A DNA stretch of 28,926 nucleotides from a virus. This document shows positions 4,929-28,926 of the stretch, in pieces. Location of the stretch: the IMG/VR virus record IMGVR_UViG_3300008267_000267, positions 1-28,926 of that record; one strand, given 5' to 3'. The first letter of the stretch is position 1; every line of letters starts with the position of its first letter. Under the pieces are notes generated by a model. That model saw only the letters and a program-made list of their open reading frames with translations. It was not told the DNA's origin and ran no database searches. Both the position numbers and the translations under genes were made by a program.

Positions 4929-5447
4929 ATGATACAGACAGCATCACAAACAAGCATCAAGCAACCTAAAACATTAGCTGAAACTTCTGTTGCTAGATTG
5001 ACTGACAGACTTCGAGATGAATATGCAGCTCATTACTTTTATCGCAATGCTCACAATTGGTGTGCTGGAGAAGGTTATATGAAAGCTGCAGCATTCTTTA
5101 AAGCAGAAGCAGCTGCAGAATTAGAACACGCAGAAGGCATACAAAAGTATTTAGTAGATTGGAATGTATACCCTACACTACCATCCATTAAACCAACTAT
5201 CAATTTTAGCAATTTGATTGATATTGTTAATAAAGCCTATGCCATTGAATATGCATTGTTTGAAGCATATACTAAAAATTCAGCAGAGTTGTTTGCTACA
5301 GACTTAAATACTTTTGATTTCATGACTGAATATCGTAAAGGTCAAACTCAATCAGTAATTGAATATTCAGATTTATTGAATGCCGCTAACCTAGTAAATG
5401 TAGGTAACAATTTTGAAGTATTGTATTTCGAACAAACATATTTTTAA
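4929..5447 (+). CDS. Ferritin-like diiron protein in the tail operon
   Basis: A 172-residue protein that aligns without gaps to E. coli FtnA over its first two helices. FtnA E17, W30, C31, A39-A41/F42, E50 and H53 match E31, W44, C45, A53-A55/F56, E64 and H67 here. After one deletion FtnA E94 matches E107 (in YAIEYALFEAY), and Q127 probably matches Q139. So the main ferroxidase ligands are kept. FtnA E49, E126 and E130 (outer iron site) appear replaced by A63, G138 and S142. About 15 extra residues precede helix A. Ferritins oxidise and store iron; some four-helix relatives have other uses. It follows the tail tube by 15 nt with no promoter between, and a terminator follows it. Fold assignment is firm from residue matching; a role in virions is inference. 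Confidence 0.85.
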   Translation: MIQTASQTSIKQPKTLAETSVARLTDRLRDEYAAHYFYRNAHNWCAGEGYMKAAAFFKAEAAAELEHAEGIQKYLVDWNVYPTLPSIKPTINFSNLIDIVNKAYAIEYALFEAYTKNSAELFATDLNTFDFMTEYRKGQTQSVIEYSDLLNAANLVNVGNNFEVLYFEQTYF

Positions 5448-11208: not shown

Positions 11209-11514
11209 ATGGATAGATATCAATTTACACCAATCAAAAAAGATACAGATACCGGAGTTCGTATGCTGTCAAGTACATACTATCCTAAAATAGATGCACA
11301 ATCAACTGACATATATATAATAACCAGAGCCGGTGATAGACTAGACAATTTAGCTTATTCATACTATCAGGATACAACCAAATGGTGGGTTATAGCAGTT
11401 GCGAACAATTTAGGTAAAGGTACATTTGCAGTGCCTGCAGGAAAACAAATAAGAATTCCATATCCTATCAACGATTTATTAAATCAATTACATAACAGTC
11501 AAACTACATTATAA
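11209..11514 (+). CDS. LysM-domain baseplate protein, gp53-like
   Basis: A 101-residue protein that is mostly one LysM-type domain: IITRAGDRLDNLAYSYYQD, then TKWWVIAVANNL, and a closing VPAGKQIRIPYP. LysM-like modules occur in T4 baseplate wedge protein gp53 and in the X/P2-type tail proteins that bind the spike-hub complex. It lies between the tube-initiator gene and the hub gene and its stop TAA overlaps the hub ATG (TAATGG), indicating coupled translation. Shorter than T4 gp53 (196 residues), so it could instead be counted as a tail protein X-type adaptor. Confidence 0.75.
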   Translation: MDRYQFTPIKKDTDTGVRMLSSTYYPKIDAQSTDIYIITRAGDRLDNLAYSYYQDTTKWWVIAVANNLGKGTFAVPAGKQIRIPYPINDLLNQLHNSQTTL

Positions 11515-13508: not shown

Positions 13509-13522
13509 AATATATATTGTAT

Positions 13523-14089
13523 ATGCCATTACAAAGTTTTTATTTACAGAATCAAATAGTTACTGGATTGTATACCACAGGCGGTCAGTGGCAATTGGAA
13601 GATGGTACTGAATACATAGGGCCATATCATCAGTATATAAACGATAGATTAACATATACCAATTCTAAATACCAAAAAGGTGTAACCAAACAATTGTTTC
13701 CTTTAGTAACTGATCCAAACATTAAAGAATACAATCAGGCTACAGGTACTAGCGCAAAAATATGGGCACAGCCTAAATATCATTATCCAGTAATAACTGC
13801 CAACCATATTCAACAAGGTTGGATTCCTAGATATTTTGTTCAAGTAAGAAACAATCCACAAAGTACCATTGTAGAAATCAGCCAGGAACAAGTTGCTAAC
13901 ATAGGAACTCCTGTCAACGGTATTGATGATACTCGATACAATTCCTTAACCATCCGTTGGAAAATAACAGGTACTCCTGCAGAAATTATAAATTCTAACA
14001 GACAGATGTTAGCCATTAAGAATCAAACCTTTCCAGGTATTGTCAACTACCTATCCGACCTAGTAGAATTTTCTACATCCATCAGATAA
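13523..14089 (+). CDS. Probable virion structural protein, function unknown
   Basis: The likely start is the ATG at 13523 rather than the in-frame TTG six bases upstream, giving 188 residues (MPLQSFYLQNQ). It is the last gene of the tail block. The segment DGTEYIGPYHQYINDRLTYTN resembles a motif I recall from small structural proteins of marine T4-like phages that have no assigned function. Aromatic-rich, beta-leaning composition, no cysteine, no membrane segment or signal peptide. It follows the hub gene by 14 nt. A baseplate or tail-fibre attachment role fits its place but is unproven. Confidence 0.65.
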   Translation: MPLQSFYLQNQIVTGLYTTGGQWQLEDGTEYIGPYHQYINDRLTYTNSKYQKGVTKQLFPLVTDPNIKEYNQATGTSAKIWAQPKYHYPVITANHIQQGWIPRYFVQVRNNPQSTIVEISQEQVANIGTPVNGIDDTRYNSLTIRWKITGTPAEIINSNRQMLAIKNQTFPGIVNYLSDLVEFSTSIR

Positions 14090-14136: not shown

Positions 14137-15486
14137 ATGATATTAATCGAGGACCATAATCAGTATGACTTGTTTTTAGGGGATATCCGAGAGTGTAAAA
14201 CTTTTTGGGTACCAATATACTCGGACCAATACAAACATTATGTACATAACCGGATATCATGTATATACATATATAATATAGATACTCAATTGGAATACAT
14301 ATTGCCATTCTATCACAAAGAATGTGTGAACTTGCCAATGGACTATTTAAAGGGTATTGCCACTGAAGATGATATATTTGTATTGAACAAAAAACATTTT
14401 ATACATTTTTACAACAAGACTGTTTATGATGCAGATTTAGTGGCTTGGTTTCAAACTGGTAAAGGTTTACAATTGGAAGACACTGAAACTGCAACACATT
14501 CATTTTTCAACAAGATGTATTACAATGAAACCAATGTTAATGATTTCATACCTATATTCAAACACTATGAGAAGTGTGTGGAAATTAAGGATCACTTTCT
14601 AGAAGCATATCATTCATTCAACAAAACAAAAGACTTTACTAGATATGACTCTTTATATATAGACAACCTGTATGCCATAGAGAGGAACGGGCTTGCCATC
14701 AACTATGATAAATTTGTTGATGCATTTCAAACCAACGGTATAATTGACAACACTGTATATACTGAATATAATTTATATACTACTACAGGTCGTCCAAGCA
14801 ACAGATTCGGTGGAGTAAATTATGCCGCATTGAACAAAGAGGATGGCAGTCGAGAAGCATTTGTGAGTAGATTTAAAAATGGAATGCTATTGGAATATGA
14901 CTTTGATTCATATCACTTAAGATTGATTGCAGACATCATAGGATATACATTTCCAATGGATGCCATACATGACTTTCTAGGTAAACAGTATTTCAAAGTT
15001 GATAAGCTGACTGAAGAACAATATGAACAAAGCAAGCAGTTAACATTCAAATCCTTGTATGGAGGACTGACTGAAGAAACAGAAGGAGTTGAATTCTTTC
15101 AAAAGGTACATCAATTCAGTAAAGGTTTATGGAAACAATATCAGACTGACGGATATATACATACTCCATTGTTCAACAGAAAAATGAAAAAGAGTTTTTA
15201 TAGTGATATGAATGCCAATAAATTGTTCAATTACTATTTGCAGGCAGTAGAAACTGAATACAGCATTATCATAATAAACAATATCAATGAATTGTTGCAA
15301 GCATATTCAACCAAATTGATTCTGTATACATATGATTCATTGCTGTTTGATTTCAATATAAGTGAAGGCAAGGAGTTGATTGTGAACATTAAGAATGTAA
15401 TGTCAGACAATGGCAAATACCCAGTAAAAATAAAGTCTGGTAGAACCATTCACAATATGAATAGCATAACAAACAAATTGAATTAA
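14137..15486 (+). CDS. Family A DNA polymerase, divergent, exonuclease region degenerate
   Basis: A 449-residue protein with the family A palm motifs. TTGRPSN (217-222) matches TGRLSS of Pol I (R668). Motif A is EYDFDSYHLRLI with catalytic D255. Motif B is SKQLTFKSLYG with K300, F304 and Y308 at the K758/F762/Y766 positions. N365 and Q369 match N845/Q849. Motif C is YTYDSLLF with catalytic D400. Several normally fixed residues differ: E710 is H260, R754 is Y296, H881 is Y399 and E883 is S401. Residues about 40-160 look like a shrunken 3'-5' exonuclease domain lacking the DxE motif, so proofreading must come from elsewhere. T4 relatives normally use family B gp43. First gene of the replication block, with a bipartite promoter abutting its ATG. 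Confidence 0.85.
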   Translation: MILIEDHNQYDLFLGDIRECKTFWVPIYSDQYKHYVHNRISCIYIYNIDTQLEYILPFYHKECVNLPMDYLKGIATEDDIFVLNKKHFIHFYNKTVYDADLVAWFQTGKGLQLEDTETATHSFFNKMYYNETNVNDFIPIFKHYEKCVEIKDHFLEAYHSFNKTKDFTRYDSLYIDNLYAIERNGLAINYDKFVDAFQTNGIIDNTVYTEYNLYTTTGRPSNRFGGVNYAALNKEDGSREAFVSRFKNGMLLEYDFDSYHLRLIADIIGYTFPMDAIHDFLGKQYFKVDKLTEEQYEQSKQLTFKSLYGGLTEETEGVEFFQKVHQFSKGLWKQYQTDGYIHTPLFNRKMKKSFYSDMNANKLFNYYLQAVETEYSIIIINNINELLQAYSTKLILYTYDSLLFDFNISEGKELIVNIKNVMSDNGKYPVKIKSGRTIHNMNSITNKLN

Positions 15487-15550: not shown

Positions 15551-15943
15551 GTGTATAATACTCAATTACTTTGTACATTTGCGCATAAAACAGATATAGA
15601 TATCATATTGCAATATATTAAAAATGTATATTCAACAATAGATCGACAATTATTTATATTTAGCAATCAAAATGATGACAGCGAACTATTTTGTACATAC
15701 AACATAGATAAGTCTGAGCGACATTTGAAAGTACCTAGTACCATAAGTATACATCGTAAGAAAGATACGAATACATTATATACAGTGAATGCATTAAATT
15801 TAATCATACAACAATTAAACAACGGAGTGTTGGACAAATCATTTATCATCAATTGGGAAGTATACGCCAATTCTTTAATATTGACCAACGGTTCAGATGT
15901 TAGAATAATTAAATTGCATTTATTTAAAAGAATTGAACTGTAA
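15551..15943 (+). CDS. Conserved-looking small protein of the replication block, unknown
   Basis: A 130-residue protein starting at GTG, with an AGGA ribosome site a few bases upstream. The ATG at 15537 is in another frame and leads to a stop after 20 codons. Notable segments are ELFCTYNID, TISIHRKKDTNTLYTVNAL and NNGVLDKSFIINWEVYANSL. I recall similar proteins in T4-like marine phages beside replication genes, without a known function. Mixed alpha/beta, no enzyme motif. It lies between DNA polymerase and SSB, so a replication or late-transcription accessory role is possible but is only an inference. Confidence 0.7.
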   Translation: MYNTQLLCTFAHKTDIDIILQYIKNVYSTIDRQLFIFSNQNDDSELFCTYNIDKSERHLKVPSTISIHRKKDTNTLYTVNALNLIIQQLNNGVLDKSFIINWEVYANSLILTNGSDVRIIKLHLFKRIEL

Positions 15944-16075: not shown

Positions 16076-16846
16076 ATGTCAATTAATTTAGACGCAATTA
16101 AACAAAAATTAAATCAGTTACAAAATCAAACCAAAAAGTCCGATAATCTTTGGAAACCGGAAGTAGGTAAACAGACTATTCGTATTGTCCCTTATCAACA
16201 TAATAAAAGCAATCCATTTACAGAATTGTATTTTCACTATGATTTAGGTAAAAAGAATTTTGTATCCCCAATGACATCTGGTAATCCAGATCCAGTAATT
16301 GAATTCGCAGAGAAATTAAAATCATCAGGTAATTCAGACGAATGGAAATTAGGTAAAAAATTAGAGCCTAAAATGAGATGTTATGTTCCTATCATTGTTA
16401 GAGGTAAAGAATCAGAAGGTGTTAAATTCTGGGGATTCGGTAAAACAGTATATACTGAATTGTTAGGGTTTATGGCTGATGATGACTACGGCGATATATC
16501 AGATCCAATGAACGGTAGAGATATTGTTGTAGAATTTATTCCAGCAGAAGGTGCAGGATATCCTAAAACTACTATTAGAATTAAACCTAATACATCTCCA
16601 ATCACTGAAGATAAAAATGTTGCTGAAAAAGTTGCTAAACACCAACCAAGCTTGAATGATATGTTTAAAGAGCCAACCTATGATGAACTTAAACAAGCAT
16701 TAGAAAATTGGTTGAATCCTGAAGAAGGTGCTGAGACAACTGAAGCTGCTGCTCCTGCTACTACTAAAGAAAGCAAAAAGGCTGCTCCTGCAGTTAATAA
16801 AGTAGATGATGTTTCATCTGCATTTGATGCATTATTCAATGACTAA
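16076..16846 (+). CDS. Single-stranded DNA-binding protein, gp32-like
   Basis: A 256-residue protein with gp32-type features: an N-terminal basic/leucine patch (LDAIKQKLNQLQNQTKKSDN), the core opening LWKPEVGKQTIRIVPY, then FTELYFHYDLGKKNFVSP, PIIVRGKESEGVKFWGFGKT and DPMNGRDIVVEF, an alanine/threonine-rich linker and an acidic tail (DDVSSAFDALFND) like the protein-recruiting tail of gp32. T4 gp32 binds zinc through one histidine and three cysteines; here a single cysteine is visible (in MRCYVPI), so the zinc site is absent. It coats ssDNA during replication and recombination. Strong ribosome site (GGAGG) implies high expression. Followed by UvsX, its usual partner. Confidence 0.88.
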   Translation: MSINLDAIKQKLNQLQNQTKKSDNLWKPEVGKQTIRIVPYQHNKSNPFTELYFHYDLGKKNFVSPMTSGNPDPVIEFAEKLKSSGNSDEWKLGKKLEPKMRCYVPIIVRGKESEGVKFWGFGKTVYTELLGFMADDDYGDISDPMNGRDIVVEFIPAEGAGYPKTTIRIKPNTSPITEDKNVAEKVAKHQPSLNDMFKEPTYDELKQALENWLNPEEGAETTEAAAPATTKESKKAAPAVNKVDDVSSAFDALFND

Positions 16847-16867: not shown

Positions 16868-18061
16868 ATGGCAAAAACAAAATCGGTGTCGGCTAATGAG
16901 TCGGCACCAAATAAACCGACATCACAGTCAAAGTCAGAACAGGTTGACGACTTAGCTTCAGAATTAGCATCTACACTGAATAAAAAGTTTAAGAATACTA
17001 ATTATAAGGTAGCCTACTTTTTAGAAGGAGATAGCGATTCCCCATCCAATGTATCAGGTTGGGTTAGTACTGGATCAGACATATTAAATTTAGCCATATC
17101 CAATAGAGCCAACGGAGGATTCCCTATAGGACGAATCAGTGAGATCACAGGATTGGAAGCATCAGGTAAATCATTATTAGCTGCACATGCATTAGCAGAT
17201 ACACAAAAACAAGGTGGGTTAGCAGTTTATATTGATACTGAAAATGCAGCATCGGAAGAGTTTCTAACTGCCATTGGAGTTGATTTAAAGAAAATGATGT
17301 ATGTTCCATTGGAAACAGTTGAAGATATATTTGAGTCAATTGAAAGTATTATTGAAGGAGTTCGTAAGTCCAGCAAAGACAGATTGGTTACCATTGTAGT
17401 TGATTCCATAATGGGAGCTTCAACTAAAATTGAAATGGCAGCTGAATATGATAAAGATGGTTACGCAACTTCCAAATCAATTATATTGTCCAAAGCAATG
17501 CGTAAGATAACCAATATGATTGGAAGAGAAAAAATATGTTTGATCTTTACCAATCAGTTAAGAACTCGACTAGGAGTTAGTTTTGGTGATGCATGGACTA
17601 CCTCCGGCGGTAAAGCTATTCCGTTTCACGCTTCAGTGAGATTGCGATTGAAGTCAGTAGGTAAGATTACGGTGAAGAAAGATGGCATGGATCAGGTACT
17701 AGGAGTAAAGACTGAAGTGCAAGTAGTTAAGAACAGAATGGGTCCGCCTATGAAAAAACTACAATATGATATCTATTTCGAATCTGGAATTGATAACATA
17801 GGTGGTTGGTTGGAAACTATGAAGAACTATGGATTAGTTACTCAAGCAGGTGCATGGTATACATATGTAGATAAGACTACTGGAGAAGAAATTAAATTCC
17901 AATCCAAAGACTTTGAAGGTAAAATAAATGCAGATCCTACATTGAAAAAGACTATATATGATGATATATGTGAAAACTACATATTCAAATATAAACCAGG
18001 AACTGATATAGGAATAGATGATATAGAAATTTCATCAGACATACTTAATGAAGAAAGTTAA
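16868..18061 (+). CDS. uvsX: RecA-family recombinase, UvsX-like
   Basis: A 397-residue protein with a RecA core. The Walker A motif GLEASGKS is at 95-102, followed by AVYIDTENAASEEFL (the RecA 'Y.DTE.A' segment), LVTIVVDSIMGA as Walker B, and the loop region FTNQLRTRLGVSFGDAWTTS ending in GGKAIPFHASVRLRL. The first 45 residues are a polar, low-complexity leader. It forms filaments on ssDNA for strand exchange and recombination-dependent replication. Its position after the gp32-like gene suits UvsX rather than a bacterial RecA, and its length is close to T4 UvsX (391). The stop overlaps the ATG of the next gene by one base. Confidence 0.9.
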   Translation: MAKTKSVSANESAPNKPTSQSKSEQVDDLASELASTLNKKFKNTNYKVAYFLEGDSDSPSNVSGWVSTGSDILNLAISNRANGGFPIGRISEITGLEASGKSLLAAHALADTQKQGGLAVYIDTENAASEEFLTAIGVDLKKMMYVPLETVEDIFESIESIIEGVRKSSKDRLVTIVVDSIMGASTKIEMAAEYDKDGYATSKSIILSKAMRKITNMIGREKICLIFTNQLRTRLGVSFGDAWTTSGGKAIPFHASVRLRLKSVGKITVKKDGMDQVLGVKTEVQVVKNRMGPPMKKLQYDIYFESGIDNIGGWLETMKNYGLVTQAGAWYTYVDKTTGEEIKFQSKDFEGKINADPTLKKTIYDDICENYIFKYKPGTDIGIDDIEISSDILNEES

Positions 18062-19125
18062 TGAAAAATAGATTCGCAGAAATTTTTAAAGAAATAGATT
18101 CGGATCGAAATAGTAACCAAGCCGTCGACGTCAATAGTAGAGTAATGATAGTTGACGGCTTGAATACTTATATTCGAGTTTTTTCTAGTGTCCCTGCATT
18201 GAATGATGACGGGGATCATATAGGTGGTATAGTAGGATTCTTGAGATCTATTGCAGCAACAATTAGACAATTCAAACCTACGAGATGCATTTTAATATTT
18301 GACGGTAAAGGTGGCAGTGCCCGTAGAAAGAAATCATTCGGCGGATACAAAGCTAATCGAACCGGTAAGACTAATTTTAAACGACATGAAGAGTTTAAAG
18401 ATTTAGTTGATGAACAAGAATCAATGAGAGCACAATTGAATCGTGTAGTGCAGTATTTAGCCCACTTGCCGATTACATTAATGTGTTATGACCATATAGA
18501 AGCAGATGATGCAATTGCATACATAGCCAATGAAGTATTGACACAGCCTGAAAATAAAGTCCAGATAGTGTCTACAGACCGAGACTTCTTACAATTGGTT
18601 AACGATAGGATATCTGTGTGGAGTCCTGTTAAAAAGAAGTTGTACACCCCGGCATTAATGAGGGAAGAGTTCGGCATTGACAGTAGAAACTATTTGACTT
18701 ATAGAATATTTGAAGGAGATGGATCCGATAACATACCAGGTGTAAAGGGCATATCACTGAAGTCTTTAATTAAATACTTTCCAATGATAACTGAAGAACG
18801 ACATGTACCAATAGATGAATTGTTGGATCACGCAAAAACAAATGCAACTGCTACTAAATATAAAATATACAATGTAGTTAATGATGCATTGGAACAAATA
18901 CAAATGAATTCAGATCTAATGCAATTGAAAGAAGTTGATATTGCAGGCAATATAAAATTAATGATATTGGACAAATTCAATCAGCCAATACCACAATTAA
19001 ACATGTATGAATTTAAAAAGATGTTTATGGCTGATAAACTATATACTGTTATCAAAGATGTAGATGGTTGGAGTTCGATGTCATTCAACACATTGAATGC
19101 ATATTCAAAACTAAATAATAAATAA
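18061..19125 (+). CDS. 5'-3' exonuclease / flap endonuclease, T4 RNase H-like
   Basis: A 354-residue FEN-superfamily nuclease. Metal-binding acidic residues are in place: D32 (MIVDGLNTYIRVF), D81 (ILIFDGKGGSARRK), E147/D149/D150 (EADDAIAYIA), D173 and D175 (STDRDFLQLV), and D220/D223 (GDGSDNIPGVKGI, leading into the helix-turn-helix DNA clamp). T4 RNase H (305 residues) removes RNA primers and trims flaps on the lagging strand. Here the C-terminal 120 residues extend the fold and may contact gp32. It overlaps uvsX by one base (TAATG), so translation is coupled. A 9-bp GC-rich inverted repeat lies within its first 105 nt. Confidence 0.9.
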   Translation: MKNRFAEIFKEIDSDRNSNQAVDVNSRVMIVDGLNTYIRVFSSVPALNDDGDHIGGIVGFLRSIAATIRQFKPTRCILIFDGKGGSARRKKSFGGYKANRTGKTNFKRHEEFKDLVDEQESMRAQLNRVVQYLAHLPITLMCYDHIEADDAIAYIANEVLTQPENKVQIVSTDRDFLQLVNDRISVWSPVKKKLYTPALMREEFGIDSRNYLTYRIFEGDGSDNIPGVKGISLKSLIKYFPMITEERHVPIDELLDHAKTNATATKYKIYNVVNDALEQIQMNSDLMQLKEVDIAGNIKLMILDKFNQPIPQLNMYEFKKMFMADKLYTVIKDVDGWSSMSFNTLNAYSKLNNK

Positions 19126-19163: not shown

Positions 19164-20519
19164 ATGACAGATAGATTAAGTAGTTATGGTTATAATTTTC
19201 AAATGAAGGTTATATCCGCATTATTATCAGATAAATTCTTTTTACAACAAGTTTCAGATATTATGTCTCCAGACTATTTAGAGTCGGATGCAAATAACTG
19301 GATAGTAGATACTATACTTAAATATTTCCTAGAATACAAAACTGCACCTACCTTAGAGGTAATGAAAGTTAAATTGGATGATGTAACACATGAAGTGCTT
19401 AAAACACAAATAATTGCACATCTTAAAGAAGCCTGGAGATTCATTGAAGCAGACGATTTACCTTTTATAAAAGAACAGACACTTGACTTTTGTAAGAATC
19501 AAGAAATTAAAAAGGCTATACTATCATCCGTTGATTTGTTGAAGTTCGGTAAGTATGATCAAATTAAAGCTTCAATTGATAACGCCTTGAAGGCAGGTGC
19601 AGATAAGAATATTGGCCATGAATATATGACTGACATTGATTCTAGATACCAGGATGCAGTACGCCATGTAAGAGAAACTCCATGGGATATTATTAACGAA
19701 ATAACTGATGGCGGACTTGGTAAAGGAGAATTAGGAGTATTCGTAGCACCTGCAGGTATTGGTAAGTCATGGGGGTTGATAAACATTGGAGCGCATGCAG
19801 TTAAGAAAGGCTTAACCGTAGTTCATTATACATTAGAGTTGAATGCAGCATATGTAGGTTTACGATATGACTCGGTGTTAACAGGTATAGCCAATCAGAA
19901 TTTAAAGAACTATCAAGACGAAGTAAAAAACACATTAGGTAAATTGACAGGTCAGTTAATTATAAAATACTTTCCAACCAAGACTGTATCCGTAATAGGA
20001 TTGAAGGCTCACTTTGAGAAATGTATATTGCAAGGCAAAAGACCAGATGTTATCATTGTAGATTATGCTGACTTGTTAAGAGGTACTGGTGGCGAGAAGA
20101 GGCATGAGTTGGAAAGTATTTATGAAGACCTAAGGGGTATGGCAGGAGAATATGATGTTCCAATTTGGACTGCATCTCAAGCTAATAGATCTGCATTGGA
20201 AGATGATATTATTGAAGCTGGTAAAATATCTGAGTCATACAGTAAAATTATGATTGCTGACTTTGTACTTTCATTGAGCAGAAAGGTAACTGACAAATTA
20301 GCAGGTACTGGTAGATGGCATGTTATTAAAAATAGATTTGGACCTGATGGTATTACATTCCCTAGCAAAATGAATACCTCCAACGGACAAATAAACATAT
20401 TCAACGAAACTTCAGTTCAAGGTAAAGATACTAAAAAAGAAATGCAGAACGGAGAAGAGTACGCAAGGAAGATGTTAGCTCAGAAGTTTAAAGAAATTAG
20501 TACAGATTCATTTGGTTGA
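19164..20519 (+). CDS. Replicative DNA helicase, gp41/DnaB-like
   Basis: A 451-residue DnaB-family helicase. The N-terminal 150 residues are helical, like the DnaB N-domain. The RecA-like motor has Walker A APAGIGKS (195-202), the H1a-like HYTLELNAAYVGLR, Walker B VIIVDYADLL (about 296-305), the H3 glutamine region PIWTASQANRSAL, and the H4-type stretch RWHVIKNRFGPDG with a likely arginine finger. Length is close to T4 gp41 (475). It unwinds the fork as a hexamer. No Shine-Dalgarno sequence precedes the ATG, and the promoter core ends 2 nt before it. A helicase loader (gp59) or primase (gp61) is not seen in this window. Confidence 0.9.
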   Translation: MTDRLSSYGYNFQMKVISALLSDKFFLQQVSDIMSPDYLESDANNWIVDTILKYFLEYKTAPTLEVMKVKLDDVTHEVLKTQIIAHLKEAWRFIEADDLPFIKEQTLDFCKNQEIKKAILSSVDLLKFGKYDQIKASIDNALKAGADKNIGHEYMTDIDSRYQDAVRHVRETPWDIINEITDGGLGKGELGVFVAPAGIGKSWGLINIGAHAVKKGLTVVHYTLELNAAYVGLRYDSVLTGIANQNLKNYQDEVKNTLGKLTGQLIIKYFPTKTVSVIGLKAHFEKCILQGKRPDVIIVDYADLLRGTGGEKRHELESIYEDLRGMAGEYDVPIWTASQANRSALEDDIIEAGKISESYSKIMIADFVLSLSRKVTDKLAGTGRWHVIKNRFGPDGITFPSKMNTSNGQINIFNETSVQGKDTKKEMQNGEEYARKMLAQKFKEISTDSFG

Positions 20520-20585: not shown

Positions 20586-21572
20586 ATGGAAGTTATAACA
20601 GAAAAAAGCAAAATGCTTACCGATAGATTAGCATTTAAGCCATTCGAATACCAATGGGCATACGACTATTGGTTCCAACAACAAAACGCACACTGGATGT
20701 TTCAAGAGATCAATATGCAAAAGGATATTGCAGATTGGAAATCCGAATTAACTCCAGAAGAAAAAAATGTAGTAGGTACTATTTTAAAAGGATTCTTTCA
20801 GTCAGAAACACAAATTGCAGACTATTGGAGTACCTATGTAACACAATGGTTTCCAGTACCTGAGATTAAAATGATGGCAATTACCTTTGGTGCATTTGAA
20901 ACCATACATGCAGTTGCTTATTCATATTTAAACGAAGTTCTTTATTTAGAAGACTATGAAGCATTCCTACATGATCCAACCATAATGAACAAATTGGAAG
21001 TATTGATTAATGTAGATAAAGATGATGAGTCACTAACTAATATTGCTCGTTCGTTGGCATTGTTCTCTGCATGCGCAGAAGGCATCCAATTGTTTTCTAG
21101 TTTTGCAATTATGCTTTCATTGAGAAAGAAAAACTTAATGACAGGTATCGGTCAACAAATGATATTCTCCATACGAGATGAATCATTGCACTCTGAAGCA
21201 GGTTGCAAATTGTTTAGAACATTGATTGCAGAAAATTCAGATATATGGACTGATGCATTAAAGTCAGAAATATATGAAGGATTCGAACTTGCATTGAACA
21301 ATGAGTTTGCATTTATTGATAATGTATTCAGTCAAGGTGATTTGGAAACTATTACAAGAGACCAAGTAAAAAACTTTATGTATGACAGAGCCAACAGAAA
21401 ATTAAAAGAATTGATGTTGGAGCCAGTATACAAAGTGGATGAAGAACTACTTAAACAAATGGATTGGTTCTATATATTAGTATCAGGAGAACAACAAACA
21501 GATTTCTTTTTCAATAGAGAAACAGGATACGCAAAACCAAATGCTGATTGGGAAACAGAAGATTTATTTTAA
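20586..21572 (+). CDS. nrdB: Class I ribonucleotide reductase, small (radical) subunit
   Basis: A 328-residue ferritin-fold R2 protein. Metal ligands are E74, E105, H108 (FETIHAVAY), E165 (ACAEGIQLF), E199 and H202 (IRDESLHSE). The radical tyrosine is Y112, spaced as in E. coli (E115-T-I-H118...Y122). The first ligand, D84 in E. coli, is Glu here: E74 is exactly 31 residues before E105, as D84 is before E115. The C-terminus (ADWETEDLF) is the acidic/aromatic tail that docks on NrdA. It makes the tyrosyl radical for dNTP synthesis. It sits 14 nt upstream of nrdA and is clearly in operon with it. Confidence 0.93.
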   Translation: MEVITEKSKMLTDRLAFKPFEYQWAYDYWFQQQNAHWMFQEINMQKDIADWKSELTPEEKNVVGTILKGFFQSETQIADYWSTYVTQWFPVPEIKMMAITFGAFETIHAVAYSYLNEVLYLEDYEAFLHDPTIMNKLEVLINVDKDDESLTNIARSLALFSACAEGIQLFSSFAIMLSLRKKNLMTGIGQQMIFSIRDESLHSEAGCKLFRTLIAENSDIWTDALKSEIYEGFELALNNEFAFIDNVFSQGDLETITRDQVKNFMYDRANRKLKELMLEPVYKVDEELLKQMDWFYILVSGEQQTDFFFNRETGYAKPNADWETEDLF

Positions 21573-21586
21573 TTAGAAATTAACTT

Positions 21587-23323
21587 ATGACAAAACACGA
21601 AACACATCCAATTGCTAAAAAATTAGGTTGGAAAGTAGAAGAAGATTATCCTGTAGAAGGAAACAATGCATTATATCTAACTACCATACAAGGTGGTTAC
21701 TTATTAAAAGGTGAAACGCCAAACCAATGTTATAGAAGACTTGCTAAAACAGCTGCAGCATATCATAACAACGAAGACGAATTGGAAGAAAGATTTTTTA
21801 ATCTGTTTTCTAAATTGTGGTTGATACCATCCACTCCAGTATGTGCAAACTTTGGAACAGATAGAGGTTTGCCAATATCATGTTTCTCAGGTTATGTAGA
21901 TGATGATATGTATGAATTGAATCGTAAATGCACTGAAATGTCAATGCTATCAAAAGCAGGTGGTGGAACTGCATATGACTTTTCAGGTATTCGTCCTATA
22001 GGGACTCCAATTAAAAATGGAGAGAATGGCAAGTCAGATGGAATCATTCCATTTATAAAAGGATTTGATAGTTGGATCCTAGCATCCAAACAAGGCAGTT
22101 TAAGAAGAGGTGCTGTTGCAATTTATTTAAATGCAGAACATGATGAGTATTTAGAATTTTTAGAAGTGAGAGAGCCTAAAGGCGAAGTTCAACGACAATC
22201 ACATAACATACACCAAGGTGCAATATTCACTGATGAGTTTATGCAAAAGGTAGTTGATAAGAATGGTAAAGAAAGAGAAATATGGTTAGCCACTTTAAAG
22301 AAAAGAGTTAAGACAGGTGAGCCATATACTATGTTCATTGACAATGCAAACAAAGTAGTACCTGAATGGTGGAACCGACATAGTTTAAAAATAAGACATT
22401 CAAACTTATGTTCAGAAATATTCCTACCTACGGATAAAGATCATTCATTGGTTTGTTGCTTAAGTTCATTGAACCTATCTAAATATGATGAGTGGAAAGA
22501 TACTGAAGCAGTATTTTTATCAACTTTATTTTTAGATTCAGTTATATCAGAGTTTTTAGAAAAGGCAGCACAAATTAAAGGTATTGAAGATACTGTAAGA
22601 TTTGCAGAGAAGTCCAGAGCATTAGGTTTAGGTACATTAGGATGGCATTCATATTTACAATCCAAAATGATTCCGTTTGCAGGTCTTCAAGCCAGATCAC
22701 TAACTAAATTGGTATTTGGTCAAATTAGAAAACAAGCAGATGACGCAACATTATGGATGGGATCCAAATACGGAGAACCAGAATGGTGTGCAGGGTCTGG
22801 CAGAAGGAATTTAACTTTATTAGCCATTGCACCTAACCGTAGCTCCAGCAAATTGGCAGGTGGTGTATCACAAGGGGTTGAACCATTAGCAGCTAATATA
22901 TATGTAGATGATGATTCCAAAGGAGTTCACATTCGTCGTAATCCATACCTAGAAGAATTGTTAGTATCCAAAGGAAAGAATATTCCAGAAGTGTGGGATG
23001 CCATATCCGAAGACAAAGGTTCAGTTCAGAATGTAAGATGCATGACCAAAGATGAGAAAGAAGTATTCTTAACCTTCAAGGAAATAAATCAATTGGAACT
23101 AGTAAGACAAGCTGCAGTTCGTCAAGAATATTTGGATCAAGGACAAAGTATCAATTTAGCATTCTTCCAGGATGCACCTGCCAAATGGATCAATCAAGTT
23201 CACATTGAAGCTTGGAAGTTAGGATTAAAATCATTATACTATTTAAGATCTGAATCCAATTTAAGAGCAGACTCTAAACTACAAAGAGATCTATACTCTG
23301 AATGTTTAGCTTGTGAAGCTTAA
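21587..23323 (+). CDS. nrdA: Class I ribonucleotide reductase, large (catalytic) subunit, short form
   Basis: A 578-residue R1 protein. Active-site residues are C99 (LPISCFSG, the C225 position), N273/C275/E277 (HSNLCSEIF, the N437/C439/E441 positions) and C290 (VCCLSSLNL, the C462 position). The C-terminal redox pair is C573 and C576 in ECLACEA. Compared with E. coli NrdA (761 residues) the N-terminal ATP-cone is absent: the protein starts directly in the R1 core, so dATP feedback inhibition through the cone should be lost. It reduces ribonucleoside diphosphates using the radical from NrdB. Next to FolE/QueD and dUTPase in a nucleotide metabolism block. Confidence 0.93.
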   Translation: MTKHETHPIAKKLGWKVEEDYPVEGNNALYLTTIQGGYLLKGETPNQCYRRLAKTAAAYHNNEDELEERFFNLFSKLWLIPSTPVCANFGTDRGLPISCFSGYVDDDMYELNRKCTEMSMLSKAGGGTAYDFSGIRPIGTPIKNGENGKSDGIIPFIKGFDSWILASKQGSLRRGAVAIYLNAEHDEYLEFLEVREPKGEVQRQSHNIHQGAIFTDEFMQKVVDKNGKEREIWLATLKKRVKTGEPYTMFIDNANKVVPEWWNRHSLKIRHSNLCSEIFLPTDKDHSLVCCLSSLNLSKYDEWKDTEAVFLSTLFLDSVISEFLEKAAQIKGIEDTVRFAEKSRALGLGTLGWHSYLQSKMIPFAGLQARSLTKLVFGQIRKQADDATLWMGSKYGEPEWCAGSGRRNLTLLAIAPNRSSSKLAGGVSQGVEPLAANIYVDDDSKGVHIRRNPYLEELLVSKGKNIPEVWDAISEDKGSVQNVRCMTKDEKEVFLTFKEINQLELVRQAAVRQEYLDQGQSINLAFFQDAPAKWINQVHIEAWKLGLKSLYYLRSESNLRADSKLQRDLYSECLACEA

Positions 23324-23397: not shown

Positions 23398-24102
23398 ATG
23401 TCAAAAAAAAATTACAAAGATTTAGAATTAGTTAAGCCAGGTTTCGCAAATGGTATGTCATTGCAGTTAGCAAATAAACGAGCAATAGAAGGTCCAACTG
23501 CACAATTAACTTATGAGGAAAAACAAATAATCATACAAGCTGCAGAAGAAGCATATGGTGATTTCTTAACTGCATTAGGCGTAGATTGGAAAAATGATCC
23601 GAACAGTTCGGACACTCCTCGTAGAGTTGCAAAGGCATATGTAAATGACTTATGGGCAGGTAGATATGAAGCAATGACTGACATTACAACATTTCCAAGC
23701 GATGGTTATGATGGTGTAGTATTTGAAGGTGGTATTCCTTTAACATCAATGTGCAGTCATCATCATCAAGCAATTCAAGGTTTAGTGCATGTAGCATATC
23801 TTCCAGGTGAGAGTAGCAATGTTATTGGATTGAGCAAACTGAACCGAGTAGTAGAACACTTTGGTAGACGAGGTGCAATACAAGAACAATTAACGGTTGC
23901 TATTCATCATGCCATCAATGAACTAATTGAACAGAATAAAGGAGTTGCAGTTATGATTGAAGCAACTCATAATTGTGTACAATGCAGAGGAGTTAAGCAT
24001 GTAGGTGCATCTATGAAGACTGCAAAGCTATCAGGCGCATTTTTAAACAATGGCAATGCAAGATCAGAATTTTATCAATTTGTAAAAGGTTATAACAGAT
24101 AA
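23398..24102 (+). CDS. folE: GTP cyclohydrolase I
   Basis: A 234-residue GTP cyclohydrolase I. The zinc site is C119 and H122 in TSMCSHHH (C110/H113 of E. coli FolE), with C193 in THNCVQCRGV (the C181 position). Other family marks are DTPRRVAKAY, IGLSKLNRVVEHFGRR and QEQLTVAIHHAI. It converts GTP to dihydroneopterin triphosphate, the first step towards either folate or 7-deazaguanine. The family EHH is SHH here. One base separates its stop from the QueD-like ATG, and QueE is nearby, so the product is most likely aimed at preQ0 rather than folate. Confidence 0.92.
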   Translation: MSKKNYKDLELVKPGFANGMSLQLANKRAIEGPTAQLTYEEKQIIIQAAEEAYGDFLTALGVDWKNDPNSSDTPRRVAKAYVNDLWAGRYEAMTDITTFPSDGYDGVVFEGGIPLTSMCSHHHQAIQGLVHVAYLPGESSNVIGLSKLNRVVEHFGRRGAIQEQLTVAIHHAINELIEQNKGVAVMIEATHNCVQCRGVKHVGASMKTAKLSGAFLNNGNARSEFYQFVKGYNR

Positions 24103-24103
24103 T

Positions 24104-24868
24104 ATGAAAAGATTTACTAGCACAAAATTATTTGATGGTTACTCTACTTGTTTCCGTCAATGGAGAGCAGAAGGAACTCATTGCAGATTTCTACATGGTT
24201 ATGCCATTTCATTCCGAGTTTGGTTTGAAGGTGAATTGGATGAGAGACACTGGGTATTCGACTTTGGCGGAATGAAAAGAGCCAAGACTACTATACTAGG
24301 TATGTCTCCTAAAGACTACTTTGCTTGGTTATTGGATCACACTACCATAGTAGCAGAAGATGATCCGCAACTTCAAAAATTTAAAGAATTAGATAGTTTA
24401 GGTGTTATTCAATTAAGAATACTACCAACTACAGGTTGTGAACGATTTGCAGAGTTTTTATATGGATTGATCAACTCATTCTTAAAAGAAGAAACTAAAG
24501 GTAGAGTTAAGGCTACTAAGGTTGAAGTATATGAACATGAAAGAAACAGCGCAAGCTATTCAGAGGATGATGCAAAGCAACAAACAACTGCTGCAGCTGA
24601 AGTTGAAATGGTTTCCTTGTTTGATTATTTAGGAAGACCTGCAGGTGGACCTTTAGGGTTGAAAGTTTACAATGAATCCAAGAAGTTAGGTATTACAGTA
24701 GGTAGTGTTACAATAGTATCCAAGAACTATACAGGTAAGGTTATATTGTATCCAAAAACATTTCTAAATGATTATTTTCATAAAGAATTGTACGGCAATA
24801 ACGATATACCAACTAATTATCATATAATAGACCAAGATATAGAAGAAGATTACGATTTACCATTTTAA
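24104..24868 (+). CDS. queD: 6-carboxytetrahydropterin synthase-like protein (QueD/PTPS), divergent
   Basis: A 254-residue PTPS-superfamily protein, much longer than E. coli QueD (121). YSTCFRQW and THCRFLHGYAISF align with FEAAHR and HKCGRLHGHSF. The catalytic C27 and H31 are kept, but the zinc ligands H16 and H33 become C16 and Y33. LLDHTTI gives the second-site D/H pair, and VEVYEHERN the substrate glutamate. The HGYA form belongs to a divergent clade I recall from phages and proteobacteria. The last 75 residues are an extra domain of unknown role. Reaction expected: dihydroneopterin triphosphate to 6-carboxytetrahydropterin. It follows folE by 1 nt. Confidence 0.78.
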   Translation: MKRFTSTKLFDGYSTCFRQWRAEGTHCRFLHGYAISFRVWFEGELDERHWVFDFGGMKRAKTTILGMSPKDYFAWLLDHTTIVAEDDPQLQKFKELDSLGVIQLRILPTTGCERFAEFLYGLINSFLKEETKGRVKATKVEVYEHERNSASYSEDDAKQQTTAAAEVEMVSLFDYLGRPAGGPLGLKVYNESKKLGITVGSVTIVSKNYTGKVILYPKTFLNDYFHKELYGNNDIPTNYHIIDQDIEEDYDLPF

Positions 24869-24881
24869 AAAATAAAACAAC

Positions 24882-25319
24882 ATGATAGTAAGAATAAAAA
24901 AGTTACATCCGGATGCAGTAATACCTACATATGGTAAACCCGGGGATGCAGGTATGGATTTAACTGCCATTGAAGTAGAAAGAGATCCTACAGGAAATTA
25001 TTGTTATAACACTGGACTGTCTATGGAAATTCCAGAAGGACATGTAGGATTATTGTTTCCTAGATCCAGCAACACTAAAAAGGCACTTACATTAGGAAAC
25101 AGTGTAGGTGTTGTAGATAGTGGTTACAGAGGACCAATCATTTTTAAATATCGACCTGTAGCATATGCTCAATCGCATCAGCCAGAAGAGGCATATGTAG
25201 TAGGAGATAGAATAGGTCAAATCATAATAATACCATATCCTTCCATACACTTCCTAGAAGTAAATGAATTAGGTGAAACAGAACGAGGAGAAGGTGGATT
25301 CGGATCAACAGGTAAATAA
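24882..25319 (+). CDS. dut: dUTPase (deoxyuridine 5'-triphosphate nucleotidohydrolase)
   Basis: A 145-residue trimeric-type dUTPase with all five motifs: AGMDL (23-27), PRSSNTKK (60-67), VGVVDSGYRG (about 75-84), GDRIGQIIII (about 108-117) and the C-terminal RGEGGFGSTG, whose phenylalanine stacks on uracil. It hydrolyses dUTP to dUMP, keeping uracil out of DNA and supplying dTMP synthesis. Normal length for the family. It follows the QueD-like gene by 13 nt without a clear ribosome site, so translation is probably coupled. Confidence 0.95.
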   Translation: MIVRIKKLHPDAVIPTYGKPGDAGMDLTAIEVERDPTGNYCYNTGLSMEIPEGHVGLLFPRSSNTKKALTLGNSVGVVDSGYRGPIIFKYRPVAYAQSHQPEEAYVVGDRIGQIIIIPYPSIHFLEVNELGETERGEGGFGSTGK

Positions 25320-25327
25320 TTATACAA

Positions 25328-25341
25328 CATATTTATTTATA
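25328..25341 (+). promoter_or_regulatory. Putative promoter core before the 558-residue gene
   Basis: CATATTTATTTATA in the 41-nt gap between dut and the next gene, the single-core form without TTAGGAT or TTGAAA boxes. An AAGGA ribosome site follows before the ATG. Role inferred. Confidence 0.35.
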
Positions 25342-25360
25342 GAACAAAAAGGAACTACAA

Positions 25361-27037
25361 ATGATTGACTTTGATGCAATTATCAATGAATGGAGTTATA
25401 GAACTCATAGAGGATATCCAATTTGGAATAATCCTGCCGATATGATTATATTGAAGGATATTCTTAAAGAAATGAATTTAAGTTTAGATGCTATACAATT
25501 AAAAGAATCTGAATTTACTCCATCAGAATTAGTTAGGGATAAATACCTTAATGGATTTATTGATAAAATTACTAAAGGAGAGCCATTTATTTTAGAGAAG
25601 GATAAGGAAAAGGTAATTATAGATCCAAAATTTTTAGATGTACTTACGCAAATTGGAAGCATACAAAGTATAAGTGATAGACAGAATGCAATTAAGAAAC
25701 AATTTGGGACTAATGCTATCATTCCATTAGAAGATGGTAGAAATGTACGATTGAAAGATATAAGTAAAGATACATTTACTGCAAAATCTACTACATCTGG
25801 ATTAGTAGGAACTGAAACTCCTGACTTTAAGGAAGGATTAGTTGTTTATTTTTATGATTGTAGTAAAAATTTACTTGATGATGTTTTTGATTATATAAAA
25901 GGTAATAATACTAAAATACCAGAATTATCAACTACTTCAATTAACGCTTCACATTACGGAGATAAATCAGCCAAATTGGTTACTTCTGGTATTGACTTAT
26001 TAACATCAGGAGCTACATTGGATGTAAAAACTAAACAATTGTTTTTAAATGCAATTAGTGCAGCAAAAACTATTCAGAAAAATTTTGGATTAGGGTATGT
26101 TATTGATAGAGGTGATTTATTTAATGATATACGAAAAGCTGCAAAGAAAATAACTAATGTACCTGAAGATAAATGGTGTCCTGGCGATGTTTATTTATAT
26201 AAAAATTCTTCCATTGGAGCAATTAAAGATATAATCAAACAATCTGTTACTAGTAATTCAATTGTTAGTATAGAAGAAAAAGGCGGTGATGTATTTCAAG
26301 TCGGGCTTAATTCATTATTTGATATTGATAATCCCTTGGTTACTGCAGTATCTTTAAAAGAAGAAGAGGCATTAAGTGGAAGAGCAAAGGACTTTGTATC
26401 AGTTAAAAATTTAAAGGGTGTAGATCTAGGTGCAGAAACAGGTGATTTTACTAAAGATGAGATGGCATTACTAACTGGTAGAGAATCTATAGACTCTGAA
26501 GTAATTGATAAATACAGAACTGAATATAATGTATATAAATTAAAGTATTCTAGAGAGATAACTAAATTTGGATATAAAAATACATTCGGTACTAGTAAAT
26601 ATAAAGAACCTGAAGTTCAGGTTGAAGTTAGAAATAAAATAGTAAAATCTGCTATTTATAGATTATTGAATAGATATTTTGCTAACTTTGATACATTAAA
26701 AGGTATCAATGATGTCATGAAAAACTATGATGATCCATTTTTAGCTTTGACTGCATATGGAGTTTCATTAAGTGGATTTAATCCTACATTTTATAAAGTA
26801 GTTGCAAGCAGTAAAGGTGATTATGGCCATGTAACGGTATTCAAAGGTAGAGATAGCCTCAAAGCAGAATCAGATTCAGTTATTACAATTGATACTCCAA
26901 CCAAAGCAGGCGTATATCTAACATTCAAAACCATTATGGGAGATAAGATGTATCAAACCAAATTAGATGTTAGAGAAGCAAAATCAGGATCTTCTATATC
27001 AATTGCAATTATAGTAGATGAATTTAAAGAAGCATAA
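25361..27037 (+). CDS. Large protein of unknown function (558 residues)
   Basis: Not recognised. The N-terminus (MIDFDAIINEWSYRTHRGYP) is polar and helical. The centre carries FKEGLVVYFYDCSKN (about 157-170), KWCPGDVYLYK (271-281) and, some 50 residues on, VTAVSLKEEEALSGRAK (327-343). The spacing of a PGDV strand and a V-S-L-K strand recalls nuclease folds of the PD-(D/E)xK type, but the match is weak. The C-terminus (VYLTFKTIMGDKMYQTKLDV, then SGSSISIAIIVDEF) looks like a beta-sandwich end. It has its own putative promoter, a good AAGGA ribosome site, and a terminator hairpin after it. It separates dut from queE in the metabolism block. It might be an injected or DNA-processing protein; no function is assigned. 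Confidence 0.75.
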   Translation: MIDFDAIINEWSYRTHRGYPIWNNPADMIILKDILKEMNLSLDAIQLKESEFTPSELVRDKYLNGFIDKITKGEPFILEKDKEKVIIDPKFLDVLTQIGSIQSISDRQNAIKKQFGTNAIIPLEDGRNVRLKDISKDTFTAKSTTSGLVGTETPDFKEGLVVYFYDCSKNLLDDVFDYIKGNNTKIPELSTTSINASHYGDKSAKLVTSGIDLLTSGATLDVKTKQLFLNAISAAKTIQKNFGLGYVIDRGDLFNDIRKAAKKITNVPEDKWCPGDVYLYKNSSIGAIKDIIKQSVTSNSIVSIEEKGGDVFQVGLNSLFDIDNPLVTAVSLKEEEALSGRAKDFVSVKNLKGVDLGAETGDFTKDEMALLTGRESIDSEVIDKYRTEYNVYKLKYSREITKFGYKNTFGTSKYKEPEVQVEVRNKIVKSAIYRLLNRYFANFDTLKGINDVMKNYDDPFLALTAYGVSLSGFNPTFYKVVASSKGDYGHVTVFKGRDSLKAESDSVITIDTPTKAGVYLTFKTIMGDKMYQTKLDVREAKSGSSISIAIIVDEFKEA

Positions 27038-27062
27038 GAATCTTAATCAATTTTAATTCGAG

Positions 27063-27083
27063 TACTCCCTACGGGGAGTATTC
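27063..27083 (+). terminator. Likely terminator hairpin after the 558-residue gene
   Basis: Stem TACTCCC / GGGAGTA with a C(TACG)G loop of the very stable UNCG type, followed by a weak T-rich stretch (TTCTT). The short T-tract lowers confidence in strong termination. Confidence 0.6.
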
Positions 27084-27102
27084 TTACATTTAGAAAGTTT
27101 TA

Positions 27103-27136
27103 CTAGGATTATTGAAAAGTATTATTTATATTTATG
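27103..27136 (+). promoter_or_regulatory. Bipartite promoter of queE
   Basis: CTAGGATTATTGAAA (27103-27117), exactly 9 nt, then a perfect TATATTTATG (27127-27136). It sits just beyond a terminator hairpin, as expected of a promoter. The queE ATG is 19 nt downstream with an AAAGG ribosome site. Confidence 0.62.
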
Positions 27137-27155
27137 ATAAATTAATAAAGGTTAT

Positions 27156-27992: not shown

Positions 27993-28333
27993 ATGAAAGT
28001 TATATTAAAAAAATCAGCCATTCAAAAAAGAATTAAAGAAATAACTCCGGTGGTGTTGAAACCATAAAGGATTTAGAAGTGGATCTTAAAGGTAAAAAAG
28101 TTTATCTAGTAGATGATATGTGTGATTCAGGTGCAACCATGTTTGAAGCTATATTGACTGTCGAATCTAGAATGCCAGTAGACTTGCAAATAGTTACTTT
28201 GTTGAAAAGAAAAGACGGATGCGAATATGCCGACTTCAACGGATTCGAAATAGGAGATGAATGGGTAGCAGGTTACGGATTTGATGATAATGGATTAAAA
28301 CGAAATTTAGAAGATATTATTAGGATCAATTAA
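27993..28333 (+). pseudogene. Hypoxanthine phosphoribosyltransferase, internally deleted
   Basis: Two separated pieces of an HPRT-type gene. The first frame (ATG at 27993) reads MKVILKKSAIQKRIKEI, like the HPRT N-terminus (compare PEAEIKARIAEL in E. coli Hpt), and then runs into a stop at 28066. From about 28046 a second frame reads SGGVETIKDLEVDLKGKKVY, then the PRPP loop LVDDMCDSGATM and GFEIGDEWVAGYGFDDNGLKRNL, closely following the HPRT C-terminal half. Roughly 55-60 codons, including the core strand and the flexible loop, are missing, and the frames do not match. A GTG at 28079 could start an 84-residue remnant, but this would lack half the fold. A real deletion or an assembly error are both possible. 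Confidence 0.72.
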
Positions 28334-28353
28334 AAAAACTTTTTATATTTATG
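28320..28353 (+). promoter_or_regulatory. Putative bipartite promoter after the HPRT remnant
   Basis: TTAGGAT at 28320, ATTAAA at the TTGAAA position (28329), then a perfect TATATTTATG at 28344-28353, giving the same 9/15/24-nt offsets as the strong sites. It overlaps the end of the HPRT remnant. Confidence 0.45.
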
Positions 28354-28407
28354 AAAATTAATATTTGGATATCAATCAATCATGTGTTTCAATAATTGTA
28401 TGAGTTT

Positions 28408-28542
28408 ATGAAACATCCAGTAGCAGTTAACCTACCTAAAGACTTTGAATATTGGTTTCATAGTAATGGAAGTAATACAGATCTTGCTATGGTAACAATC
28501 GAAGTAGATTTATTTATAAAAATATTAGACAATTTAAATTAA
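28408..28542 (+). CDS. Small hypothetical protein, 44 residues
   Basis: ATG at 28408 opens a 44-residue frame, MKHPVAVNLPKDFEYWFHSNG then VTIEVDLFIKILDNLN, ending in TAA six bases before the next ATG. The composition is protein-like and codon use matches its neighbours, and tight packing with the next gene supports it. No convincing ribosome site is seen. Not recognised. Confidence 0.5.
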   Translation: MKHPVAVNLPKDFEYWFHSNGSNTDLAMVTIEVDLFIKILDNLN

Positions 28543-28548
28543 TAAGTT

Positions 28549-28926
28549 ATGTACGGAAAACAACAATGGATTGGACGCGAGGTAGAAGGACGCTACAGTG
28601 ATATGATGACTTTCTTTGTAAGAGAATTAGGAGATGGTATTGATGTAGAAGATTTCAATCAGTATCCTCATTATTATTTTACGGTAGAATACATGGAAAC
28701 AATGTTAGCACTCACTTTGTCTGATACACTTAAAGGCAATCGTAATACCAATAAAGAATACATTGGTGCAATTCGTGGAATTTTAGACACTACTAATTGT
28801 GTAGTAACTATTGAAGCTAACAATAAAATTATAGACTGTCTGCCACCTGATCTATTCAATAGATGTCACATAATATACCGCATACAAGATACTGCAGTAC
28901 AGAAGTTGAAAAGCACTGATACATTA
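28549..28926 (+). CDS. Hypothetical protein, 3' end outside the window
   Basis: An ATG at 28549 opens a frame that stays open to the window end (126 codons). It starts MYGKQQWIGREVEGRYSDMM, then FFVRELGDGIDVEDFNQYPHYYF, and later YIGAIRGILDTTNCVVTIEA and PPDLFNRCHIIYRIQD. Mixed alpha/beta, three cysteines, not recognised. The steady codon use and the absence of stops make it a real gene whose product cannot be assigned from this part. Confidence 0.72.
   Translation, partial: MYGKQQWIGREVEGRYSDMMTFFVRELGDGIDVEDFNQYPHYYFTVEYMETMLALTLSDTLKGNRNTNKEYIGAIRGILDTTNCVVTIEANNKIIDCLPPDLFNRCHIIYRIQDTAVQKLKSTDTL

Follow-up and report, generated by a model that had tools for sequence, protein, structure and literature searches.

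The 28,926-base IMG/VR record analysed here, referred to as the window, encodes a short family A DNA polymerase that, judged by its sequence, belongs to the divPolA1 family of Yutin et al. (2024; PMC11348598). On balance, we regard divPolA1 as probably an active, proofreading-free polymerase of the Pol I type with a shortened thumb, which is kept beside a replicative polymerase and has a gap-filling role. Yutin et al. named divPolA1 in 14 phages, including Flavobacterium phage immuto. According to the available text, divPolA1 proteins retain the palm residues, have a truncated thumb, and carry replacements of the exonuclease aspartates; they are encoded besides a regular DNA polymerase (DNAP) of family A, B, or C, and conserved replication genes lie downstream (PMC11348598). 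Literature searches on 'divPolA1' returned only this study and its preprint, with no biochemistry for the family. Searches on second phage polymerases and on Klenow active-site changes returned nothing on the divPolA1 family, and the term PolA is absent from the available part of PMC7824862. At least 592 environmental phage contigs carry divPolA1, and no characterised member was found in the literature.

Table 1. Coordinates of divPolA1, its motifs, and the neighbouring features in the window; residue equivalences refer to E. coli Pol I (Klenow)
Feature	Position	Strand	Remarks
divPolA1, short family A DNA polymerase	14137..15486	+	449 aa; His at steric gate; degenerate exonuclease-like N-terminus; Pfam, model, and profile alignment
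N-terminal 135 aa of divPolA1, alpha/beta exonuclease-like domain	14137..14541	+	from the model; domain boundary is an estimate
motif 1, TGRPSN to N228	14785..14820	+	R219 = Klenow R668
motif A, D255 to I264	14899..14928	+	D255 = D705; H260 = E710 (steric gate)
motif B / O-helix, Y296 to G309	15022..15063	+	Y296 = R754; K300 = K758, F304 = F762, and Y308 = Y766 intact
motif C, Y397 to D405	15325..15351	+	Y399 = H881; D400 = D882; S401 = E883
conserved 130-aa protein	15551..15943	+	directly follows divPolA1 in the gene run; marker search and model
gp32-type single-strand DNA binding protein	16076..16846	+	Pfam 1.7e-14
UvsX/RecA-type recombinase	16868..18061	+	profile matches
FEN-type 5'-3' exonuclease	18061..19125	+	PF02739; separate gene, equivalent to the 5' nuclease half of a Pol I
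gp41-type DnaB-like replicative helicase	19164..20519	+	profile matches
ribonucleotide reductase, small and large subunits	20586..23323	+	
broken phosphoribosyltransferase (prt)	27993..28333	+	start and end recognisable; middle gone, frame lost
slot that holds family B DNA polymerase in relatives	28334..28548	+	empty here; tblastn
'EGRYSD' protein	28549..28926	+	runs off the contig; directly follows PolB in relatives

The 449-aa product of the open reading frame matched the Pfam family PF00476 (DNA_pol_A) at 4e-11, with 42.8 bits against a curated cut-off of 34.3; the match was confined to residues 203-431. The window protein had no match in PHROGs at E 0.1, and phrog_17 (DNA polymerase) was matched by 17 of the 59 aligned family members. 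An AlphaFold2 model built from these 59 aligned sequences (the window, IMG/VR, and MAG sequences) had a mean pLDDT of 93.5 and a pTM of 0.90. Its best structural match was M. smegmatis Pol1 (Z 27.4, 409 residues, 3.6 Å). Among the matches listed, Pol I large fragments covered residues 1-443 of the model with Z scores of 25.8-27.4, and the Foldseek ranking was headed by Klenow. The first-pass annotation, made from the letters of the window, had proposed a highly divergent family A polymerase, and the Pfam match, the confident model, and a Z score of 27 to Pol I bear this out.

A tblastn search against phage records yielded six records with at least 80% coverage of divPolA1, namely four immuto records (35%), the 484-kb uncultured phage LR756508 (31% identity), and Microcystis phage Mel-JY01 (29%), whose divPolA1 is annotated as 'hypothetical protein'. 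The nearest annotated relative was immuto gp1 (35% identity over 89%, E 1e-66). The best PolA outside divPolA1 was that of phage CRP-3 (E 5e-6). A tree of 29 divPolA1 proteins and five other PolAs, in which the T7, immuto PolA, and Mel-JY01 rows were long, placed divPolA1 on one side of a branch of length 2.45 with a support of 100/100.

Active-site residues were mapped by profile alignment to E. coli Pol I (E 2.6e-9). The substitutions proposed earlier, E710 to His, R754 to Tyr, H881 to Tyr, and E883 to Ser, were all recovered in this alignment. The accompanying claim that only the two catalytic aspartates and the Lys, Phe, and Tyr of motif B are intact was correct for these five residues and too narrow in its 'only', as R219, N365 (N845), and Q369 (Q849) are also kept and are nearly invariant across the family. 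Conservation was counted in 113 divPolA1 sequences, comprising 91 from a first set found via motif A or C and 22 new ones from a second set found via motif 1, with gaps and X set aside. The relatives came from two IMG/VR scans, which confirmed at least 577 and at least 592 relatives and with 80 loci retained from each; seven further loci, all on MAG contigs, were obtained in a search of genome contigs. The loci L087-L093 are probably phage contigs that were binned with MAGs; the bin labels include Nitrosopelagicus, Flavobacteriales, Winogradskyella, and Rickettsiaceae.

Median pairwise identity in the first set was 39%, with a minimum of 23%. Across the 113 sequences, R668, D705, and Q849 were each present in 112/112, N845 in 111/112, K758 in 111/111, F762 in 112/112, Y766 in 112/113, and D882 in 111/111. 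The substituted positions were conserved as well. His occupied position 710 in all 112 sequences with a residue there (one gap), and Tyr occupied position 881 in 111/111. Position 883 was Ser in 93 and Ala in 18 of 111. At position 754, Tyr was found in 101 of 112, the others being Ile (six), Leu (two), and Met, Gln, and Val (one each); Arg never occurred. The first-set search patterns came from motifs A and C, so the counts were repeated in sequences lacking these patterns. H260 was found in 17/17 sequences with a residue at that position, among 18 without the motif A pattern, and Y399/D400 in 41/41 without the motif C pattern. The motif 1 search gave 22 new loci out of 80, in which the same substitutions recurred except at position 754 (Tyr in 13 and Ile, Leu, or Val in nine). 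Search-motif bias did not create the conservation result, because the pattern-lacking and motif 1 sets agree; 'R754 to Tyr', as read from these sequences, is not universal in divPolA1. In pairs at 70-98% protein identity, dN/dS was 0.035-0.20 wherever dS was computable, which indicates purifying selection. Chance or decay of a single gene was rejected by these dN/dS values and by the motif conservation in the independently sampled set.

The substitutions were compared with five other PolAs (E. coli, T7, the regular immuto PolA, CRP-3, and phiSA012). All five retain Glu at position 710, and their motif B strings show Arg at position 754. Their motifs C read HDE, HDE, HDQ, HDS, and HDS, respectively. 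Ser at position 883 is not special to divPolA1 because the ordinary PolAs of CRP-3 and phiSA012 also read HDS. R754 and H881 are important in Klenow, and their loss could make divPolA1 activity weak or altered. The available text of Yutin et al. (2024; PMC11348598) makes no mention of His at the steric gate.

The N-terminal region is folded as an exonuclease-like domain in the model. The first strand of this domain in the AlphaFold2 model (residues 22-28) holds no acidic residue. Its residues could not be aligned to PolA by sequence (hhalign probability 0.2%). In the structure-guided alignment described in the available text of PMC11348598, all three exonuclease aspartates are replaced in other divPolA1 members. 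The proposed loss of the exonuclease DxE motif in the window protein is likely from the modelled strand and from the replacements in other members. The stretch from the exonuclease-like domain to motif 1 is estimated from the model at approximately 80 residues, against approximately 145 in Klenow. A polymerase with low processivity and without proofreading would be expected because of the degenerate exonuclease and the short thumb.

divPolA1 lies in a T4-type replication cassette, as had been suggested at first pass; gp32, RecA/UvsX, DnaB-type helicase, FEN-type nuclease, tail sheath, and gp19 tube genes were all recognised in the window. Gene order was sought in 90 loci with the window proteins as markers. 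The downstream sequence required was at least 4.5 kb for the 130-aa gene, at least 6.5 kb for gp32, 7.5 kb for UvsX, and 9 kb for FEN and gp41. Downstream of divPolA1 and on the same strand, the 130-aa gene was found in 56/56 testable loci, gp32 in 42/43, UvsX in 31/37, and FEN and the gp41 helicase each in 29/31. A recombinase is annotated at the UvsX place in immuto and was unmatched by the marker search. The order was identical in 83/83 loci with at least four of the nine markers. Tail and baseplate-type genes lie upstream of divPolA1. A homologue of the window gene at 11209-11514 was upstream in all 37 loci with 6.5 kb of upstream sequence, and a homologue of that at 13517-14089 in only 40 of 67 loci with 1.5 kb. 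According to the available text of Yutin et al. (PMC11348598), it is the divPolA1 gene run, and less so the neighbourhood of the regular polymerase, that resembles a replication operon, which led the authors to suggest a role in replication.

The 130-aa protein is the most constant neighbour of divPolA1. Its model is confident and opens with a ferredoxin-like beta-alpha-beta-beta unit. A fold search gave no PDB match with an E value below 0.1 (best Z 6.2 over 65-67 residues), and the window copy matched no PHROGs or Pfam family. RegA, whose gene adjoins gene 43 in T4, was considered as its identity and rejected, as hhalign gave no alignment. Further genes of the window recur in divPolA1 loci. 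A stretch homologous to the 558-aa protein at 25361-27037 directly follows divPolA1 in L019, L044, L049, and L062, and the gene after divPolA1 in L002 opens with a motif that, by eye, resembles the EWSYR..GYP of this protein. A ferritin-like protein (4929-5447; PF00210, 3.9e-17) is encoded directly after the tail tube gene, with relatives in several other divPolA1 loci.

The first-pass annotation proposed that the cassette had exchanged its family B polymerase for a family A enzyme, and this was not borne out. PolB (PF00136) was sought in 49 IMG/VR divPolA1 records in batches of 14, 21, and 14, and was found in nine, three, and four, respectively. Where the contig continued for more than 16.2 kb past divPolA1 (16 records; this limit was set after the data were seen), PolB was downstream on the same strand in 15, at a distance of 10.2-53.1 kb; 14 of these 15 genes were within 23.2 kb. 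In the remaining long record, G059 (18.5 kb downstream), neither PolB nor a second PolA was found. G002, with 2.2 kb downstream, has PolB at the opposite contig end, and in the 32 other records that lack PolB the sequence after divPolA1 does not exceed 16.2 kb. The nearest relative tested (L007/G017, 60% identity) has PolB 14.3 kb downstream. Of two MAGs searched, PolB was found in G015 and not in G016. Mel-JY01 has a PolB gene together with clamp-loader genes. The regular PolA of immuto is full-length (777 aa) and matches the exonuclease family PF01612. Of the records searched, immuto alone yielded a second PolA, and PolC (PF07733) was found in one of 17 records, that of LR756508. In the latter record (LR756508.1, L002), three polymerase families coexist: besides divPolA1, there are PolB-like pieces in two frames and a match to PolIII-alpha. 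divPolA1 did not replace gp43 in this group, because relatives with divPolA1 in the same place carry PolB. A complete family B polymerase elsewhere in the genome, which the annotation had named as evidence against the exchange, is thus present in relatives and was not seen within the window.

The PolB slot of the window is empty. The best PolB-like tblastn match in the window had an E value of 0.22, and only 215 bp separate the prt remnant from the EGRYSD gene. In G007, G004, and G053, PolB lies between prt and the EGRYSD-motif gene, and G017, the nearest relative tested, has the order folE-PolB-EGRYSD (L121). PolB is directly upstream of the EGRYSD gene, with a median gap of about 28 nt, in 74 of the best 80 of 136 EGRYSD loci; the other six of the best 80 have only 47-729 nt of upstream sequence. 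divPolA1 was present in 11 of 15 searched records among the EGRYSD loci. In the search for closer copies of the right end, carried out with the EGRYSD protein, the closest copy among the best 80 of 136 loci had 74% identity. groES was not found in the window. From this arrangement, PolB of the window phage may have been relocated, exchanged, or lost; a misassembly of the contig at this point would be another explanation. For the window phage only, the empty slot leaves room for the exchange idea but lends it no support, as divPolA1 occupies the identical place in relatives with PolB. Deazaguanine (queuosine-type) genes occupy 23398-27989, including folE and queD by Pfam and queE by eye and by similarity to the loci of relatives; in relatives, such genes adjoin the PolB slot.

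The empty slot bears on whether divPolA1 might do more here than in its relatives. It could act as the principal replicase, in this lineage if not more widely, with PolB secondary or lost, a reading that we consider unlikely. The empty slot ahead of the EGRYSD gene, so regularly filled by PolB elsewhere, would fit it, as would the position of divPolA1 in the tightest replication gene run and the remark of Yutin et al. that the function of the regular DNAP is less obvious (PMC11348598, available text). However, PolB is kept in 15/16 long records and accompanies clamp-loader genes in Mel-JY01, and a proofreading-free, short-thumbed enzyme is unlikely to copy genomes of 150-190 kb. Since groES and part of prt are missing too, the gap is equally well accounted for by a local deletion or rearrangement, a PolB move, or faulty assembly. 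divPolA1 might instead carry out translesion synthesis at stalled forks together with UvsX and gp32. The probable absence of proofreading, the shortened thumb, the UvsX neighbourhood, the loss of R754 and H881, and the invariant replacement of E710 would suit such an enzyme, but no lesion-bypass signature is readable from sequence, changed nucleotide contacts can lower activity generally, and the proposal overlaps with gap filling; we give it a small chance. That divPolA1 is a dead polymerase serving as a scaffold would account for the several replaced active-site residues. It is very improbable, given that the 113 sequences show little or no variation at both catalytic aspartates, at R668 and Q849, and at the Lys, Phe, and Tyr of the O-helix, and that the aspartates are present in 22/22 and 20/20 (two gaps) of the set found without motifs A or C.

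The steric gate raises a different question. Glu710 is the ribonucleotide-excluding gate of E. coli Pol I, with F762 as its assistant (PMC13228545, available text). Its replacement may affect sugar choice in divPolA1, and altered sugar choice or fidelity, as had been suggested at first pass, is possible from the sequences. divPolA1 with a His gate might accept ribonucleotides and make or extend RNA primers or short RNA/DNA stretches. His in every member with a residue there, Glu in the five other PolAs, and the lack of Glu at this position in T7 RNA polymerase are in line with this proposal. Nevertheless, a bulky His may still block the 2'-OH, the gate assistant F762 is invariant, immuto has an annotated DnaG primase, and motif C with Ser is found in ordinary phage PolAs too, so that we consider ribonucleotide use quite improbable. 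There is similarly little probability that divPolA1 is a separate functional class in which the invariant His gate and the lost triphosphate contact alter sugar or template choice, for example in using ribonucleotides or in extending primers at UvsX D-loops, and which is possibly the sole phage polymerase in this lineage. Acceptance of modified dGTP, also proposed earlier, is unlikely to be the reason for the active-site changes, because the modification gene of immuto is annotated as DpdA and none of the window genes tested was identified as dpdA. DpdA is a transglycosylase that acts on DNA.

Gap filling beside a separate replicase thus remains the reading that we favour. divPolA1 would be an active polymerase because its catalytic set is conserved. 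It would most likely be the polymerase half of a split Pol I, paired with a separate FEN-type 5' nuclease, because such a nuclease is encoded in the same gene run. Together with this nuclease, gp32, UvsX, and the gp41-type helicase, it would fill short gaps left at Okazaki fragments, at recombination intermediates, and at sites of damage, before the main polymerase takes over again. Because evolution has retained a whole series of Pol I-fold enzymes whose sugar gate is uniformly His, divPolA1 offers natural material for testing steric-gate theory. The empty PolB slot points to a lineage for asking whether divPolA1 can stand alone.

Among known systems, the closest is the divPolA1 group of immuto (Yutin et al., 2024; PMC11348598, available text), which resembles the window protein in sequence (35% over 89%), length, palm residues, degenerate exonuclease, and downstream replication genes. 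Unlike the window, immuto and the long relatives have a regular DNAP; the usual DNAP slot of the window is empty, and the rest of the genome lies outside the 28.9-kb contig. Pol I large fragments (Klenow, Bst, and M. smegmatis Pol1) share the fold over residues 1-443, the motif order, and the catalytic Asp with divPolA1. They differ in length (about 600 aa against 449 aa), in having Glu710, Arg754, His881, and Glu883 where divPolA1 has His, Tyr, Tyr, and Ser, and in the stretch before motif 1, the place of the thumb, which is shorter in divPolA1. Rhodothermus phage RM378 was put forward at first pass as a split Pol A for comparison. It is likewise a T4-like phage with an unusual polymerase arrangement, but this comparison was wrong, as its split polymerase is of family B, with PF00136 in Rm378p092 and PF03104 in Rm378p024. 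For the RM378 protein Rm378p012, whose annotation reads 'similar to DNA polymerase I', the match was confined to the 5'-3' exonuclease domain. The divPolA2 of barbaviruses is, like divPolA1, an extra divergent PolA that is encoded beside a regular DNAP and is without an exonuclease domain; it is set apart, by its description in the available text of PMC11348598, by a variable neighbourhood and an unrelated N-terminal domain.
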